From Chloroflexota bacterium (GTDB taxonomy: Bacteria > Chloroflexota > UBA6077 > SHYK01): 45,127 bases of DNA. The notes beneath the pieces were generated by a model. It had not been told where the DNA came from, searched no databases, and saw only the letters and a list, made by a program, of their open reading frames with translations. The DNA lies in assembly GCA_009377635.1 (NCBI GenBank), contig WHTR01000002.1:1-45127 (forward strand), read 5' to 3'. Of the stretch, positions 19,466 to 26,050 are shown one piece after another (the first letter of the stretch is position 1; the number at the start of each line of letters is the position of its first letter). The position numbers and the translations under genes were made by a program.

Positions 19466-19524
19466 CGCTTCTAGCGCATCTACGCGCTGCGCACCTACCG
19501 CTCTTGGCCGCGACAGTTCCAGGG

Positions 19525-19530
19525 TACAAT
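19525..19530 (+). promoter_or_regulatory. candidate -10 box before ispH
   Basis: TACAAT lies 37 bases before the ispH start, with TTGGCC at 19504-19509 as a possible -35 box, 15 bases away. The spacing is short, so confidence is low. Confidence 0.35.
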
Positions 19531-19566
19531 CAACGAGCATCGACCAAGCGTTGCGAGGATCTATCG

Positions 19567-20538
19567 ATGAAGATTCATCGCGCCCCGCGGTTCAGCGGCT
19601 TCTGCGGTGGTGTGAAACGCGCGTGGAGCATCGCGATGCGCACGCGGGACAACACAGAAGGGCCGGTTTTCGTCTCGGGGGAGCTCATCAACAACGACCC
19701 CGCGATGCGCGCGCTCGAGGCAAAGGAGATCGGCATCCTGCGGGTCGGCGAGGATGAGAGCCCGACCCAACCAGGGACGCTCATCATGCGGGCCCATGGA
19801 GAGGGGCCGCGGTCCTTCGAGCGCGCCAAGGCCCTCGGCCTGAACGTCGTCGACGCGACCTGCGGCATCGTCAAGGTGGTTCAGCAGAAGGCGGTGAAGC
19901 TCGAAGACGACGGCTACCAGGTTATTCTCTACGGACACCGCAATCACCCGGAGGCGAGAGCCACCATCGCCTACACGAAGCGTGGGATGATCGTTGAGTC
20001 CGTCGAGGAGGCGGAGGCGCTGCCGCGCTTCGAGCGCGTGGCCGCGCTTGCCCAGACAACGGCGCTCCTGTCTGAGTACGAGCGCGTCTGCGAGGTGCTG
20101 AAGGCGAAGTCGGAGGTGTTCGAGAATCAGGGCCAGGTGTGCGCGTGGACGAAGATGGCGCAGGATGAGGCGGAGGAGGTGGCCGCCGGGTGCGACGTTA
20201 TGATCGTCGTCGGCGGGCGAAAGAGCGCCAACAGCCACCGCCTCGTGGAAGTCTGCGGCCAGCGGGTGCCCAGCTATCTCGTCGAGACGGTCGACGACCT
20301 CGAATCATGGTGGTTCACTGCGGACTCGGTGGTCGGAGTCACAGCCGGCGCGTCGACGCGGGAGCAAGACGTGCTCGACGTCATTGAGGCCATCACGGCC
20401 ATCGGCGCCCGGCACGGGGACGGCACCCACGGGTCAGGCGTCGCAGTCGGCGAGCGCGCGATGGCCGCGAGCAGGGGGCATCTCTCGATCGGGCCGCCCG
20501 GAATCCCACCGGACCGCCTCGAAGAGGAGGTGCGATGA
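19567..20538 (+). CDS. ispH: 4-hydroxy-3-methylbut-2-enyl diphosphate reductase, divergent
   Basis: IspH/LytB-type [4Fe-4S] enzyme, last step of the MEP pathway, converting HMBPP to IPP and DMAPP. The three cluster cysteines are seen in GFCGGVKRA, DATCGIV and GQVCAWT. HPE (GHRNHPEA) with the catalytic glutamate, the AHG histidine, AQTT and TAGAST are kept. Several active-site positions deviate: the usual HN in the ELIHN motif is NN here (ELINND), and the NSSN segment reads KSAN. The ATG at 19567 starts the conserved sequence; an upstream in-frame GTG/ATG region to 19504 is unlikely. It overlaps ispG by four bases (ATGA), a strong sign of coupled translation. The 323 residues are normal. Confidence 0.88.
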   Translation: MKIHRAPRFSGFCGGVKRAWSIAMRTRDNTEGPVFVSGELINNDPAMRALEAKEIGILRVGEDESPTQPGTLIMRAHGEGPRSFERAKALGLNVVDATCGIVKVVQQKAVKLEDDGYQVILYGHRNHPEARATIAYTKRGMIVESVEEAEALPRFERVAALAQTTALLSEYERVCEVLKAKSEVFENQGQVCAWTKMAQDEAEEVAAGCDVMIVVGGRKSANSHRLVEVCGQRVPSYLVETVDDLESWWFTADSVVGVTAGASTREQDVLDVIEAITAIGARHGDGTHGSGVAVGERAMAASRGHLSIGPPGIPPDRLEEEVR

Positions 20539-21647
20539 TCCAGCGTCGCTCCACGCGGCAGGTGATGGTGGGGAACGTCGCCGTCGGCGGTGACGCGCCC
20601 GTCGCCGTCCAGTCGATGTGCAGTACGGACACGCGCGATATCGACGCGACCGTCGCACAGATCCAGGCGCTCGAGGATGCCGGCTGCGAGATCGTTCGCA
20701 TCGCCGTCCCGACGAAAGAGGCCGCTGACGCGTTCGGCGAGATTCGCTTGCAGACGACCATTCCCCTGGTCGCAGACATCCACTTCGACTACCGGCCGGC
20801 CCTGCTGGCCATTGAGAAGGGGGCCGACAAGATCCGCATCAACCCAGGCAACATCATCAACGCCGACGGCATGCGCGCCGTCCGGCTGGCAGTTGACGCG
20901 GCGAAGGAGCGCGACATCCCCATCCGTGTCGGCGTCAACGCCGGTTCCATCGAGCAGAAGTTGCTGGACAAGTATGGCTATCCGACGCCGGAGGCGGCGT
21001 GCGAGTCGGCTGTAAACCACGTCCATCTGCTCGAGGACCTGGGCTTTGATGACATCGTGGTGTCGGTCAAGTTCAGCGACGTGCCCCGGATGGTGGATGC
21101 GTATCGGCTCCTGAGCGAGCGCATCGACTATCCCCTACACCTGGGAGTGACCGAGGCTGGGGCCGCAATGCCCGCCTACATCAAGTCGGCGCTCGGCATC
21201 GGTTCGCTGCTGGCGAACGGCATCGGCGACACGCTGCGGGTCTCGTTGACGACCGCCGACAAGACCGACGAGGTGGTCGCCGGCTTCGAGATCCTCAAGG
21301 CCCTCGAGATCCGGAGCAAGGGACCACTCCTCACCGCGTGCCCGTCCTGCGGCCGAGCGCAGGTCGACCTCCCCGCCCTCGGCCTCCAGGTGGCGGAGGC
21401 GCTGAAGCACGTCGACAAGCCCGTGAAAGTGGCCGTCATGGGCTGCGCGGTGAACGGGCCGGGCGAGGCGGCCGAGGCCGATATTGCCGTCGTGGGCGGC
21501 CGCGGCGTCGGGATGCTGTACATCAAGGGCAAGCCAAGCCGGCGGGTCCCTGAGCACGAGGTCATCCGAGCCCTGCTCGACGAGATCGCCGCGTGGGAGC
21601 CGTCGCCCGAAGCGGCCCAGTTTCCAAACGGCGCAACATCCCGCTAA
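20535..21647 (+). CDS. ispG: 4-hydroxy-3-methylbut-2-en-1-yl diphosphate synthase
   Basis: IspG/GcpE, 370 residues, converts MEcPP to HMBPP with a [4Fe-4S] cluster, one step before IspH. The N-terminal TIM barrel begins with VQSMCSTDTRD and contains DIHFDYRPAL and KIRINPGN. The C-terminal cluster domain shows TACPSCGR and MGCAVNGPGE, giving the three cluster cysteines and the glutamate ligand. Everything expected of a two-domain bacterial IspG is present. Translation is probably coupled to ispH through the ATGA overlap. Having consecutive pathway enzymes in one operon, in the order ispH-ispG, supports IspH being functional in spite of its odd residues. Confidence 0.96.
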   Translation: MIQRRSTRQVMVGNVAVGGDAPVAVQSMCSTDTRDIDATVAQIQALEDAGCEIVRIAVPTKEAADAFGEIRLQTTIPLVADIHFDYRPALLAIEKGADKIRINPGNIINADGMRAVRLAVDAAKERDIPIRVGVNAGSIEQKLLDKYGYPTPEAACESAVNHVHLLEDLGFDDIVVSVKFSDVPRMVDAYRLLSERIDYPLHLGVTEAGAAMPAYIKSALGIGSLLANGIGDTLRVSLTTADKTDEVVAGFEILKALEIRSKGPLLTACPSCGRAQVDLPALGLQVAEALKHVDKPVKVAVMGCAVNGPGEAAEADIAVVGGRGVGMLYIKGKPSRRVPEHEVIRALLDEIAAWEPSPEAAQFPNGATSR

Positions 21648-21679: not shown

Positions 21680-22993
21680 ATGACATACGCCCCCGATCGA
21701 CGCACGCTGCGTCGATCCCTCGAGGGACTGGCCCTCTTTCGCGACGTCTTCGATGACGCCATCGGACGCGCCGCACGGGCCATCGTCGACGAGCCGTCGT
21801 ACATCCAGGCGGCGCGCCTGGTCAGCCTGCTCATCGAGGAGGCGGAGCTCTCCAGCGAGGAGCTGGTGGGAGACGCCTGGCAGAACCATCTGCTGGACCG
21901 AGTGCTCGCCGCGGAGAATGCCTTCAGTCGGAAGGCGGAGCGCGCGTGGGTCGAGGAGATGGGGGCGGGGCTCCTCCGCCAGGCACGGCGCGAGCTAGGG
22001 CTTCTCCAGCAGCTGTACTACGAAGGTGGCGACATCCTCGCCGCAGAGGCGTACGCGGCCCTCGGCGAAGTCGGCGCTCTGGGGTGGAGCAGCTACCGCC
22101 CCCTGGCGCGCGGCCCGCAGCTGCATGCGCCCGAGGCGCTGGCGCTGAAACACGCGCTGGCCGCCTCCCGCGACTGGCAATCCCTCACCGAGAAGCTGGC
22201 GGCCGTCTACGCTGCGGCCGGCGTCGGCATGTTCGGGCGGTTCCGGGCATTTCGCTGGGTCCATGCCGGCGAACGCGGACACCTCGAGGGCGTGCACCAC
22301 CCAGACCCGGTCCGGCTCGACGACCTCATCGGATACGAGCGTGAGCGGGAGGTCGCGGTCCAGAACGCGGAGCGCTTCGCCGCCGGCCTCCCCGCCAACA
22401 ATGTCCTCCTGTACGGGGAGCGCGGGACGGGCAAGTCGTCAACCGTGAAGGCCCTGCTCAACGAGCTGGGAGACCGGGGCCTCCGTCTGATCGAGGTGCC
22501 GAAAGAGCATTTGGAGGACTTCCCCGACCTGATCGCTGTACTGCGTGACCGCCGCGAGCGGTATCTGCTGTACATCGACGACCTTTCGTTTGAGGAGCAG
22601 GAAACGCACTACAAGGCACTGAAGGCCGCGCTGGAGGGCGGCATCGAGGCGCGGCCCGACAACGTGGTGCTCTATGCAACGTCCAATCGGCGCCACCTCG
22701 TGCGCGAGCGCTTCGGGGACCGGGCGAGCGACGAGGATGTCCACGCCTTCGATACCATGGAGGAGAAGCTCTCCCTGTCGGACCGGTTCGGAATCCGCGT
22801 CACGTTCGGAGCGCCGGACCAGGAGCGCTACCTGGCCATCGCTCTCGGACTTGCCGCTCGGGCCGGGATCATCCTCCCCGAAGACGAGGTCCGGCGCCGC
22901 GCTCTCGACTGGGCACAGCGACAGAACGGACGCTCCGGGAGGACGGCCCGGCAGTTCGTCAACGCCCTCGTCGGCGAGCTCGCCGTTCCGTAG
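21680..22993 (+). CDS. DUF815 family AAA-type ATPase
   Basis: A 437-residue ATP-binding protein of the DUF815 family. The first 200 residues are helical with no recognised domain; the AAA+ core follows, with the P-loop LLYGERGTGKSS (about residues 237-248), a Walker B-like LLYIDDLSFE (about 290-299) and the sensor-1-like ATSNRRHLV. The C-terminal helical lid contains GRTARQFVNAL. The role of DUF815 proteins is not established. It starts 32 bases after ispG, so it may be co-transcribed, but no link to isoprenoid synthesis is known. The ribosome site before the ATG is weak. Confidence 0.9.
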   Translation: MTYAPDRRTLRRSLEGLALFRDVFDDAIGRAARAIVDEPSYIQAARLVSLLIEEAELSSEELVGDAWQNHLLDRVLAAENAFSRKAERAWVEEMGAGLLRQARRELGLLQQLYYEGGDILAAEAYAALGEVGALGWSSYRPLARGPQLHAPEALALKHALAASRDWQSLTEKLAAVYAAAGVGMFGRFRAFRWVHAGERGHLEGVHHPDPVRLDDLIGYEREREVAVQNAERFAAGLPANNVLLYGERGTGKSSTVKALLNELGDRGLRLIEVPKEHLEDFPDLIAVLRDRRERYLLYIDDLSFEEQETHYKALKAALEGGIEARPDNVVLYATSNRRHLVRERFGDRASDEDVHAFDTMEEKLSLSDRFGIRVTFGAPDQERYLAIALGLAARAGIILPEDEVRRRALDWAQRQNGRSGRTARQFVNALVGELAVP

Positions 22994-23064: not shown

Positions 23065-24327
23065 CTACGTGCGAGCGCGGATGACGAGCCGATAGAGTCC
23101 ACCCGGACGAAGGCTGGTAACGAATAGCTCACCGTCCTGGTCCTCGCCGAACGAGCTTATGCTGAGGGATGACTCGATGAGCTCGGTCTGGCGCCACGTC
23201 CTATCGGCCTGCCGGTCGAGGGCCCAGACGCGTCCGCTGCAGTAGTCGGCGAAGAAATACACGCCTCGTGTAGACGGATAGGCCCGTCCCCGGTACACGA
23301 AGCCGCCCGTGATCGAGCATCCCAGGTCGTGTGAGTACTCGGTGATCGGGACCGGCAGCGCACTCCGATCACATGCCTGACCGCCAGGGTAGCACTGGCT
23401 CCCCTCGACGATCGGCCATCCGTAGTTCCGTCCGCCACCAGCGCCCGCGCCCTCAAGGTGGACCCATTCGAAACGATTCTGTCCGACATCGGCGATGTAG
23501 AGATCGTCGGTCGCCCGATCGAAGGAGAAGCGCCAGGGGTTGCGGAGCCCGTACGCCCAGATCTCCGTACGAGCGCCGTCCCTGGTGACGAACGGGTTGT
23601 CGGGCGGGATGGCATAGGGCACGCTTGCGTTGACGTCGATCCGCAGGAGCTTTCCGAGCAGCGACGAGAGGTTCTGGGCATTGCCGTATTGGTCCCCCGC
23701 ACCACCTCCGTCGCCCATGCCGATGTAGAGGTAGCCGTCCGGACCGAAGACGAGATTCCCGCCGTTGTGGTTCGCTGCCGGCTGAGGGATCTGCAGCACC
23801 GGGAGCGCGCTATTCGGGTCGACAACGTCCGGATCGCGGGAGACCGCGTACCGAACGATGGTCGTATCCCCGTTGGTGTTCGTGAAGTTGATGTACAGCC
23901 AGCCGTTCTCGGTGAACTGAGGGTGAAACGCGAGGCCGAGAAGTCCCTGCTCCGAACCACGCGCGCTGACCATCGGCTGAATGTCCAGGAACGGGTTGGG
24001 CAGGAGCCGGCCGTCGCGCACGATCAAAATGCGTCCGGCCCGCTCGAGGACGAACAGGCGTCCTGACCCATCCTTCGCGGATCCCACGTACGTTGGCTCT
24101 TGGAGCCCCGTCACGACGGGCTCGAGCGCGAGTTCCACGGCACCCGGATCGAACGGACGGGGCGAAATGGGCCCGGCCTGGATGGCGCCAGAGTCCGAAT
24201 CGAGCGATGGCGGCGTTGCCTCGGGCACGGCCGCCTGGCTTCCGAGCGTGCATCCCGCGGCCGATGCCATCGACACGACGACGATGCCCATCCAGAGTGC
24301 GACCACCCATTGCCGAGGCCCACGCAC
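23065..24327 (-). CDS. PQQ-dependent sugar dehydrogenase-like lipoprotein
   Basis: Glucose/sorbosone dehydrogenase family (six-bladed beta-propeller, Hhip/YliI-like), 420 residues. A signal peptide (about residues 8-25, hydrophobic) ends in SAAGC, a likely lipoprotein cleavage site, so the enzyme would be anchored outside the membrane. Motifs include EQGLLGLAFHPQF with the catalytic histidine, NHNGGNLVFGPDGYLYIGMGD (NHxGG, the PQQ/calcium region) and GLRNPWRFSFD. Cys pairs in the CYPGGQAC and DLGC regions may form disulfides. PQQ synthesis genes are not in the window. Start is a GTG with GAAGGTG upstream. The divergent gene is the OsmC-type selenoprotein candidate. Confidence 0.9.
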   Translation of the reverse strand: MRGPRQWVVALWMGIVVVSMASAAGCTLGSQAAVPEATPPSLDSDSGAIQAGPISPRPFDPGAVELALEPVVTGLQEPTYVGSAKDGSGRLFVLERAGRILIVRDGRLLPNPFLDIQPMVSARGSEQGLLGLAFHPQFTENGWLYINFTNTNGDTTIVRYAVSRDPDVVDPNSALPVLQIPQPAANHNGGNLVFGPDGYLYIGMGDGGGAGDQYGNAQNLSSLLGKLLRIDVNASVPYAIPPDNPFVTRDGARTEIWAYGLRNPWRFSFDRATDDLYIADVGQNRFEWVHLEGAGAGGGRNYGWPIVEGSQCYPGGQACDRSALPVPITEYSHDLGCSITGGFVYRGRAYPSTRGVYFFADYCSGRVWALDRQADRTWRQTELIESSLSISSFGEDQDGELFVTSLRPGGLYRLVIRART

Positions 24328-24405
24328 GGCGCACCTTCACCCGCTGTCGGATTTGCTTCATACTATCCCATCGCGAATGCCAGATGACGGGAAGGAGATT
24401 CGCCT

Positions 24406-24933
24406 GTGATCAAGGATCCGAACTACGTTCCACCGCCGCGCGACCCGGATCGGCCAGGGCCCCACATCGTCGCAGAGATTACTCCTCGGGAGGGGCAGCT
24501 CAAGGAGGGACGGGTCCAGGGCTTCACCGTCACGTGCGACGAGGCCATTCGGCCGGGCCCAACCGGCGGCGCCGACAAGGCTCCATCGCCCCTGGGGTAT
24601 TTCACCGTCGGCATCGGCTTCTGACTGGCGACCCAGCTTGTGCAGGTTGCACACACGCTCAAGATTGAGTATCGGAACGCACGCATCAAGGTCGACGGTA
24701 GATTCTTCCGGGAGGGATCGATCCTCGCGGGTACTGCGCGCGCCGTGTGCGACTCCGTCACGACGGAGGTGCACCTCGAGAGCGACGAGCCGCCGGTGCG
24801 GGTGGCGGAGCTTATCCGCATGGCTGAAGCGAGCTGCTACACGATCGCCGCGATCCGGAACGCGGCGCCGGTCAGCCTCGTCTCCACGCTGAACGGCGCA
24901 CCGCTCGAGGTCGATGCGCCCGCCGGCGCCTGA
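24406..24933 (+). CDS. OsmC-family peroxidase-like selenoprotein candidate (in-frame UGA = Sec73)
   Basis: Read as one gene, this encodes a 175-residue OsmC-family protein. The frame runs through a single TGA at 24622-24624 and continues with unbroken family similarity: GGADKAPSPLGYFTVGIGF, then UGA, then LATQLVQVAHTLKIEY. OsmC proteins reduce organic peroxides with two cysteines; the UGA sits exactly where the first (peroxidatic) cysteine of GFC is expected. The second is kept at about residue 144 (AEASCYTIAA). A hairpin like a bacterial SECIS element starts 10 bases after the UGA. The GTG start has GGAAGGAG eight bases upstream. A nonsense mutation or base error is the alternative; without recoding only a 72-residue peptide would be made. 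Confidence 0.82.
24635..24659 (+). promoter_or_regulatory. bacterial SECIS-like stem-loop
   Basis: After the UGA at 24622-24624, TGTGCA (24639-24644) pairs with TGCACA (24648-24653) around a GGT loop. AGC (24635-24637) pairs with GCT (24657-24659) below an internal loop. The GCAGGT core also occurs in the SECIS hairpin of E. coli fdhF, and the loop G lies 21 bases past the UGA, close to the fdhF spacing. It lies inside the coding sequence, as bacterial SECIS elements do. Confidence 0.7.
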
Positions 24934-25015
24934 GACGGACGCAACAAGCGCGTCGCGGACCAGCGTAGGGGAGCGCAACTCTGTTACGGGTGAACTCAGC
25001 CTTTTAGGCCAGATT

Positions 25016-26050
25016 CTAGGGTTTGTCGGCCTCCGGGTTCGGCACCGCGGCGCGCCAGGGGTAGTAGCTTGATGCCTCGACCGTGGCGATGATCTCCCGC
25101 ATCTCCGTCACAGCCTGGATCGGATAGGCGCCAATCGCCGTCTCCTCGGAGAGCATCAGCACGTGCGCACCGTCCAGCACCGCGGTCGCCACGTCGGCCA
25201 CCTCGGCGCGCGTCGGATGCGGGTGAAGGACCATCGAAAGCAGCATCTCAGTGGCGACGATGCACGTTGTTCCCCGGCGCCGGCACGCGAGCACGATGTC
25301 CTTCTGGACGAGCGGAACACGGGCGCGAGGGATGGAGACCCCGAGATCCCCGCGAGCGATCATGACGGCGTCCGCTGCCGCGATAATCGCCTCCAGGTCG
25401 TGGAGGGCGCCAGCCGTCTCGACCTTGGCGATGATGCGGGCGCCTGGCGCGAGGTGCGGTCGCAGCGCCTCGAGATCCAAGGCGCGCTGAACGAACGACA
25501 GCGCCACCCACTGGACGCCGATCTCACGGCCGATACGCGCATCGGCAATGTCCTTCGCCGTAAGGGGCGGGAGCGGGATCTGACTGGACGGAAAGACGAC
25601 GCCCTGATTTCCCTCCACCGTGCCGCCGATCACGACCCGGCACCGGACCCCGTCCTCCGTGCGCTCAAGGACTTCCAGGTCGATCATGCCGTCGTCGAGA
25701 TAGATGCGGTGGCCGGGTGCAACACCAGCGAGTGCCGCCGGCTCCGAGATGCGGAGCACGCCGGCCCCCTGCCCATCGCCGGACAGGACGATCTCCCCGC
25801 CCGGGCTGAGGAGTGTGTAGGGCGTGTTTACGGTGCGGATCTTCGGCCCCTGGAGGTCCTGGATGAGATCGACGGCGCACCCGACTTCGTCGGCGATGCG
25901 ACGCAGCCGTGCAGCCATCTCCTCGTGCTCCTCCGGCCTACCGTGCGAGAAGTTGAGCCGCGCGAAGGATATTCCGGCCCTCACCATCCCGCGAAGCACG
26001 GCGTCCGACCGGCTCGCCGGGCCGAGTGTACCGATGACCCGTGTCTGCAC
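25016..26050 (-). CDS. pyk: pyruvate kinase, short form without C-terminal domain
   Basis: Glycolytic enzyme converting phosphoenolpyruvate and ADP to pyruvate and ATP. The 344 residues cover the TIM barrel with the B-domain insertion but not the C-terminal allosteric domain of typical 470-residue enzymes. Present are NFSHG, DLQGPKIR, YLDDGMIDL, the catalytic lysine in IIAKVET, and ARGDLGV. Variations from the usual pattern are ATEMLLSM (glutamate for the glutamine of ATQM) and LSEETAIGAYP (for SGETAxGKYP). Such short, probably non-allosteric pyruvate kinases are known. Start is a GTG; its ribosome region overlaps the stop of the asparaginase remnant. Confidence 0.92.
   Translation of the reverse strand: MQTRVIGTLGPASRSDAVLRGMVRAGISFARLNFSHGRPEEHEEMAARLRRIADEVGCAVDLIQDLQGPKIRTVNTPYTLLSPGGEIVLSGDGQGAGVLRISEPAALAGVAPGHRIYLDDGMIDLEVLERTEDGVRCRVVIGGTVEGNQGVVFPSSQIPLPPLTAKDIADARIGREIGVQWVALSFVQRALDLEALRPHLAPGARIIAKVETAGALHDLEAIIAAADAVMIARGDLGVSIPRARVPLVQKDIVLACRRRGTTCIVATEMLLSMVLHPHPTRAEVADVATAVLDGAHVLMLSEETAIGAYPIQAVTEMREIIATVEASSYYPWRAAVPNPEADKP

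Follow-up and report, generated by a model that had tools for sequence, protein, structure and literature searches.

The DNA analysed here (the window) is a stretch of 45,127 nucleotides from a Chloroflexota draft genome of 343 contigs that is 84% complete. On its forward strand it carries an osmC frame that is interrupted by a single TGA, at codon 73 (Table 1). This frame starts with GTG at 24406 and its terminal stop is another TGA (24931-24933). With TGA 73 read through, it covers 175 codons without any other break. The read-through protein matched the Pfam OsmC model PF02566 with 42.6 bits (cut-off 27.5) over residues 55-158, a match that spans the TGA, and the NCBIfam model NF041052 with 144.3 bits (cut-off 95) over residues 23-164. 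A UxxT redox motif on the PF02566 domain is present as U73-L-A-T76. A sequence-only reading of the window had described a single OsmC frame interrupted only by this TGA, and these results bore it out. The downstream piece does lie in the same frame, as had been stated. The stated 98 codons from 24640 need a small correction: the list of open reading frames gave 97 amino acids from a GTG at 24640, and the open frame itself begins right behind the TGA.

osmC lies between a divergent glucose/sorbosone dehydrogenase gene and a pyruvate kinase gene, and seems to be a stand-alone gene. Elsewhere in the window, lytB/ispH and gcpE/ispG, the genes for the two terminal reactions of the MEP pathway to isoprenoids, adjoin each other, and a gene for a DUF815 AAA-type ATPase of unknown function adjoins gcpE.

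Table 1. Position of the osmC gene, its elements and nearby genes in the window
Feature	Position	Strand	Basis
OsmC-related gene, very probably for a selenoprotein; 175 codons + stop, one in-frame TGA	24406..24933	+	frame, PF02566 and NF041052 match
Shine-Dalgarno-like GGAAGGAG, ending 8 bases 5' of the GTG start	24390..24397	+	direct sequence reading
UGA codon 73, very probably read as Sec; motif U-L-A-T (UxxT)	24622..24624	+	38 TGA loci; 8 Cys and 1 Ser homologues
Candidate bacterial SECIS-type hairpin, 6-bp stem UGUGCA/UGCACA, loop GGU (24645-24647), 20 nt from UGA to loop	24639..24653	+	stem scan; covariation in relatives; weak by energy
Cys144 codon, predicted second active-site cysteine	24835..24837	+	Cys in 36/36 aligned Sec proteins
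lytB/ispH and gcpE/ispG	19504..21647	+	
DUF815 AAA-type ATPase	21680..22993	+	
Glucose/sorbosone dehydrogenase	23065..24327	-	
Pyruvate kinase	25016..26050	-	

Conservation of the in-frame TGA

A protein search of 41 genomes, that of the window included, gave matches in 11 of them, with a TGA inside the match in four (again including its own). The three other TGA-bearing sequences, at 62, 44 and 26% identity, had it at the identical codon, in the context GF-U-L[AL]-T-Q. The nearest relative found, from genome G002 (62% identity), belongs to the same family and to another genus; two genomes, G008 and G009, belong to the order of the window. No relative was recovered from a contig database with the single protein, whereas a profile of the four TGA sequences found 15 loci there, 14 with TGA at the codon and one, from Amycolatopsis, with Cys. 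Records of the 14 TGA loci were from Chloroflexota/Chloroflexi, Dehalococcoidia, the SAR202 cluster, Deltaproteobacteria and Candidatus Tectomicrobia, and two of them (L035 and L045) appeared identical with contigs of G009 and G008, respectively. A 14-row profile searched against 400 Chloroflexota genomes (E ≤ 1e-20) matched in 29, of which 26 had TGA, two Cys (G292 and G026) and one Ser (G040). A class-level search of 29 genomes gave 21 with a match, and the four matches with a TGA inside were all known from the other searches. In the profile searches of the contig database and of the 400 genomes, the share of Sec among the matches is biased upwards, since the query profiles were built from Sec members.

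After removal of double counts, TGA was found at the position of osmC codon 73 in 38 distinct loci, window included. Its recurrence at this codon, at identities to the window protein down to 25-27%, excludes chance. The alignment of 45 homologues showed 36 TGA, eight Cys and one Ser in this column; Trp or Gly never occurred among the nine non-TGA members. Its 36 Sec members are the TGA loci other than L044 and L101, whose frames are broken or cut, and the reading of the column covers all matches apart from L029 and those weaker class-search matches that are in neither the tree nor this alignment. Four state changes are needed on the Sec/Cys tree, whose long branches are compatible with either direction of change. 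The placement of the UGA at the first active-site cysteine, as proposed from the sequence alone, is in line with the Cys found in eight of the nine non-TGA homologues. Either Cys or UGA was expected there among relatives and was found, with Ser as the one exception.

The second cysteine, which had been said to be kept at about residue 144, is indeed present as Cys144 in all 36 aligned Sec proteins, 71 residues after Sec73. At this position the Ser homologue has a gap and one Cys homologue (L028) has Ser. In the Ser homologue, locus L100 from G040, no Cys was thus aligned at 144 next to the Ser at the Sec position, and both redox residues seem, from the alignment, to have been lost together.

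These counts bear on three explanations that do without selenium. The call rests on a draft assembly, and a sequencing or assembly error could have turned a TGC or TGT into TGA; however, the same TGA in G002 and in 36 further loci, from other assemblies, makes a local error untenable, and this explanation can be set aside with hardly any reservation. A nonsense mutation in an ordinary, decaying Cys-type osmC gene would show just such an in-frame stop, and one relative (L044, 3253-3342) has further damage: its Sec-UGA and hairpin are kept and its frame is broken downstream, either as a decaying copy or through an assembly error. Nevertheless, 38 distinct loci share this TGA, all 36 alignable ones keep Cys144 and the hairpin behind the TGA covaries (see below), so that a pseudogene is very improbable. 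This agrees with the initial argument that a random nonsense mutation would hardly hit this very codon, and that decay would be expected to leave other damage. Lastly, UGA might be a sense codon, through a general code change (to Trp or Gly, for instance), or be read by nonsense suppression. No evidence supporting this was found, and several points speak against it. The osmC frame itself ends at TGA, as do four of the 11 window ORFs checked (ORFs whose ends had been set by taking TGA as a stop), eight of nine non-TGA homologues have Cys in the column and none has Trp or Gly, and the genome has a tRNA-Sec gene together with selA, selB and selD. A change of code or suppression is accordingly an extremely remote explanation.

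The hairpin and the selenocysteine genes

According to the accessible part of PMC13188914, bacterial SECIS elements have an apical loop of 3-9 nt, an upper stem of 4-16 bp, a G in the first two loop positions and 16-37 nt between UGA and loop, and are predicted up to a limit of MFE ≤ -7.5 kcal/mol. The hairpin of the window, with its 6-bp stem, GGU loop and spacing of 20 nt, falls within this geometry. Its 19-nt MFE was -6.2 kcal/mol, against the limit of -7.5, and was the weakest of 16 loci tested. Longer window segments gave -11.0 and, for 51 nt from the UGA, -15.3 kcal/mol, in another structure than the hairpin. The 51-nt fold pairs bases near the UGA and was equalled by 26 of 200 shuffles (z -1.23). 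The 24-nt window hairpin was not exceptional either (z -0.57, 51 of 200 shuffles as good), and an Rfam scan of positions 24300-25050 gave no match.

The first 16 loci all had an unbroken stem of 5-8 bp whose loop (GGU, GUN, GGUU or GGCU) came 19 or 20 nt downstream of the UGA. In all 38 TGA loci, the best stem had 5-9 bp and a loop with G in the first two bases, 16-37 nt from the UGA. At one of two registers lying one base apart, at least 5 bp were found in 34 of the 38; the other four (L088, L093, L096 and L099) had stems of 5-6 bp, one or two bases off or with a larger loop. As controls, 2.0% of 1070 window TGAs (both strands, the site itself included) and none of the nine Cys/Ser homologues had a stem of 5 bp or more in these two registers. 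At least 6 bp anywhere in the range occurred behind 14.2% of the 1070 TGAs and in two of the nine homologues.

Covariation was assessed on 11 distinct rows (12 given, of the 16 loci then in hand); the rows in the other register (L034, L036-L038) and 22 later loci were scored for stems only. In these 11 rows, 93.5% of the cells were paired, and none of 500 shuffles reached the pairing or the covariation score. Double changes occurred in five of seven pairs, a number that four of 500 shuffles equalled or exceeded. The count of further pair types was unexceptional, being reached in 115 of 500 shuffles. Sliding the stem partner made pairing fall to 51.9% or less. Among 2000 synonymous recodings of the window, one recreated the stem at its place (P 0.0005); for any place in the range, P was 0.0055. 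With one codon usage, that of the window ORFs, applied to all loci, the other 15 loci had P values of 0.006-0.023 at the fixed place, except L035 (0.35, no excess). For any place in the range, five of the 16 (L032, L034, L035, L039 and L045) were above 0.05. Bases adjoining a UGA in the A site should be covered by the ribosome. Since the competing fold draws on such bases, the covariation was considered to outweigh the energy result.

The sequence-only reading had named selA, selB, selD and a selC tRNA as genes to be sought, and all were present in the draft genome, each above its cut-off. A single tRNA-Sec match exceeded the gathering score of 47 (69.2 bits), and ARAGORN reported a tRNA-SeC with anticodon tca. 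SelA reached 561.3 bits (cut-off 267.9), SelD 364.9 bits (cut-off 125) and SelB 314.6 bits (cut-off 242.25). The open frame of selB has 598 amino acids, and its match takes in positions 2-345 of a model with 581. The selD gene (L016, a minus-strand frame on contig C111) also has an in-frame TGA, in AHCAG-U-ASKIG, which we take to be the usual Cys/Sec site of SelD; SelD of this genome thus appears to be a selenoprotein too.

Among the 26 Chloroflexota genomes with UGA-osmC, selA was found in 25 (E ≤ 1e-50; G341 being the one without it) as compared with 321 of 400 overall, a frequency that makes this co-occurrence weak as evidence. A tRNA-Sec was found in 20 of the 26 (E ≤ 1e-9), those without a match at this threshold being G134, G166, G176, G316, G341 and G385. 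In these draft genomes, with 100 tRNA candidates scored in each, the six tRNA-Sec absences and the single selA absence may be misses. A tRNA-Sec was also found in G292, with the Cys form, and in G040, with the Ser form, and not in G001. It is worth noting that G382 had three tRNA-Sec matches over the gathering score, on three contigs. SelA exceeded its cut-off in 320 of the 400 Chloroflexota genomes, and Sec use seems to be very common in this phylum; the word 'Chloroflex' was not found in the main text of the two reviews searched for it.

Taken together, the TGA in 38 loci, the covarying hairpin (34 of 38 TGA loci against none of nine Cys/Ser homologues) and the Sec machinery make a pseudogene, a sequencing error and a reassigned stop very unlikely. 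With high confidence, based on comparative sequence data, osmC of the window can be regarded as a functional gene for a selenoprotein, belonging to the family NF041052 ('OsmC-related (seleno)protein'), with Sec at codon 73. The hairpin 20 nt behind the UGA would bind SelB, SelA would make the Sec-tRNA with the selenophosphate supplied by SelD, and SelB would bring this tRNA to the ribosome, where UGA 73 would be read as Sec.

Redox residues, fold and possible function

The AlphaFold model of the window protein had a mean pLDDT of 83.4 and a pTM of 0.78. A structure search with this model returned 61 OsmC/Ohr chains at E ≤ 0.001, the best at 2.2e-7. Among the 50 matches listed, TM-scores normalised by the query were 0.40-0.56 and rmsd was high, which supports the fold only. 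While a phmmer search of the PDB with the single window protein gave no match, a profile search gave eight at E ≤ 0.01, the best being 3cje (E 8.1e-19). Aligned by profile, 3cje, 2onf and 1vla each have Cys in the Sec column.

The window protein is likely to be a thiol/selenol redox enzyme. A peroxidase function we infer only from analogy with Ohr/OsmC proteins. Under such a scheme, the substrate attacked by Sec73 would be an oxidised compound, most probably an organic hydroperoxide like that of Ohr/OsmC. A selenenyl-sulfide between Sec73 and Cys144 would follow, to be reduced by a cellular dithiol.

In Xylella Ohr, as described in the accessible text of PMC5962072, the catalytic Glu51 precedes the peroxidatic Cys61 by ten residues and Arg19 is catalytic as well. 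The counterpart of Glu51 by spacing, residue 63, is Leu in 35 and Met in one of the 36 Sec members, so that none of them has the Glu of canonical Ohr at this place. This residue aligned with Glu of 2onf and with Leu of 3cje and 1vla, the last having Glu one residue later. Leu was also found at this position in six of the nine Cys/Ser homologues, namely the Cys homologues L046, L081, L024, L025, L031 and L027. To call the window protein an Ohr would therefore claim too much, and the term 'Sec-Cys peroxidase' of the sequence-only reading likewise exceeds what these data support. As to Arg19, its putative counterpart, residue 33, is Lys in the window protein, in 21 of 36 members of one alignment and in 14 of 14 of another.

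The gene neighbourhoods of 31 loci and the window revealed no neighbour common to the family; the largest clusters were present in six loci, and some of them were ORFs overlapping osmC. Pfam analysis of ten shared-neighbour proteins identified no peroxide-stress genes. One cluster, found in six of the 32 neighbourhoods and not in that of the window, is a molybdenum hydroxylase and was not taken as evidence of function. In L043 (640-2868, + strand) and L111, a gene for a hydroxylase of this kind, of the xanthine dehydrogenase type, lies directly upstream of Sec-osmC on the same strand.

Another possible explanation is a Sec enzyme that uses the OsmC fold on some other oxidised or electrophilic substrate, for example in thiol-disulfide or sulfur-transfer chemistry, and is no hydroperoxide reductase. 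The Leu or Met at the Glu51 position would fit this, as would the Leu of 3cje, the closest solved relative by profile, deposited as an OsmC-like protein, and the lack of peroxide-stress genes among the ten shared-neighbour proteins. On the other hand, both redox positions are kept at a distance of 71 residues, and hydroperoxide-resistance proteins of the Ohr/OsmC type come up in the fold search. Furthermore, Leu at the Glu51 position is not peculiar to Sec members, and 1vla, which shares it, was deposited as hydroperoxide resistance protein OsmC. A substrate other than a hydroperoxide is thus conceivable, though on the unlikely side. It may tentatively be suggested, at less than even odds, that NF041052 is mainly a Sec family, as the 26 TGA genomes among the 29 matched by the profile of Sec members would have it, and that, with the catalytic Glu absent, its Sec carries out an undescribed reaction on this fold instead of ordinary hydroperoxide reduction of the Ohr kind. 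Loci of the NF041052 type come from Chloroflexota (SAR202 among them), 'Deltaproteobacteria' and Tectomicrobia.

Relation to known OsmC-like proteins

OsmC-like selenoproteins with a UxxT motif were already tabulated in 2005. In the parts of these sources that were available, PMC1088965 gives an OsmC-like UxxT selenoprotein with three sequences, COG1765 and a predicted SECIS, and PMC2398784 contains the table row 'pfam02566, UxxT, 5, 3, 161'. An OsmC-like selenoprotein is also listed in excerpts of the reviews PMC9312934 and PMC13188914, and PMC7435645 names OsmC once. The mention, in the sequence-only reading, of Sec-containing OsmC-like proteins from marine metagenomes is borne out by the available passages of PMC2398784 and PMC1088965. 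The 'different setting' claimed for the window goes too far: what is new is one genome of a family for which NCBI has the model NF041052.

In the accessible literature on OsmC selenoproteins, queried under that name and not as NF041052, no functional test of the family was found. Sec-OsmC is a fair target for learning what selenium gives to an OsmC-type enzyme. To a family first tabulated from few marine sequences, the window contributes a well-supported Sec-OsmC whose draft genome has the Sec genes and whose hairpin covaries among relatives. It would also lead to a corrected annotation, as a gene caller that takes every TGA as a stop would be expected to split or truncate osmC.

The likeness to the OsmC-like selenoprotein of the Sargasso Sea and Global Ocean Sampling data (COG1765/PF02566) consists, according to the available parts of these reports, of the OsmC domain, the UxxT motif and a predicted SECIS. 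Those sequences are marine, and their family (listed records AACY01145085, MBR72571.1 and MCS5647933.1) was compared by motif and domain. In the motif, Ser replaces Thr in eight of the 36 aligned members. With the Ohr/OsmC organic hydroperoxide reductases, the window protein has the fold and both redox positions (73 and 144) in common; it differs from them by Sec in place of the peroxidatic Cys and, like all 36 Sec members, by Leu or Met at the Glu position of Ohr. In PDB 3cje, the OsmC-like protein Jann_2040, the Cys of G-C-V-M-T-Q aligned with Sec73, and Cys also stands in the column of Cys144; it differs in being a Cys form, from Jannaschia. Finally, the NCBI model NF041052 (OsmC_like_Se, 'OsmC-related (seleno)protein') matched 14 of 14 alignment members at E ≤ 0.001, its 95-bit cut-off being compared for the window protein, which lies above it and in which nothing was found that sets it apart. 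The gene of the window is therefore very probably a true selenoprotein gene, added to a known, curated family and representing no new kind.
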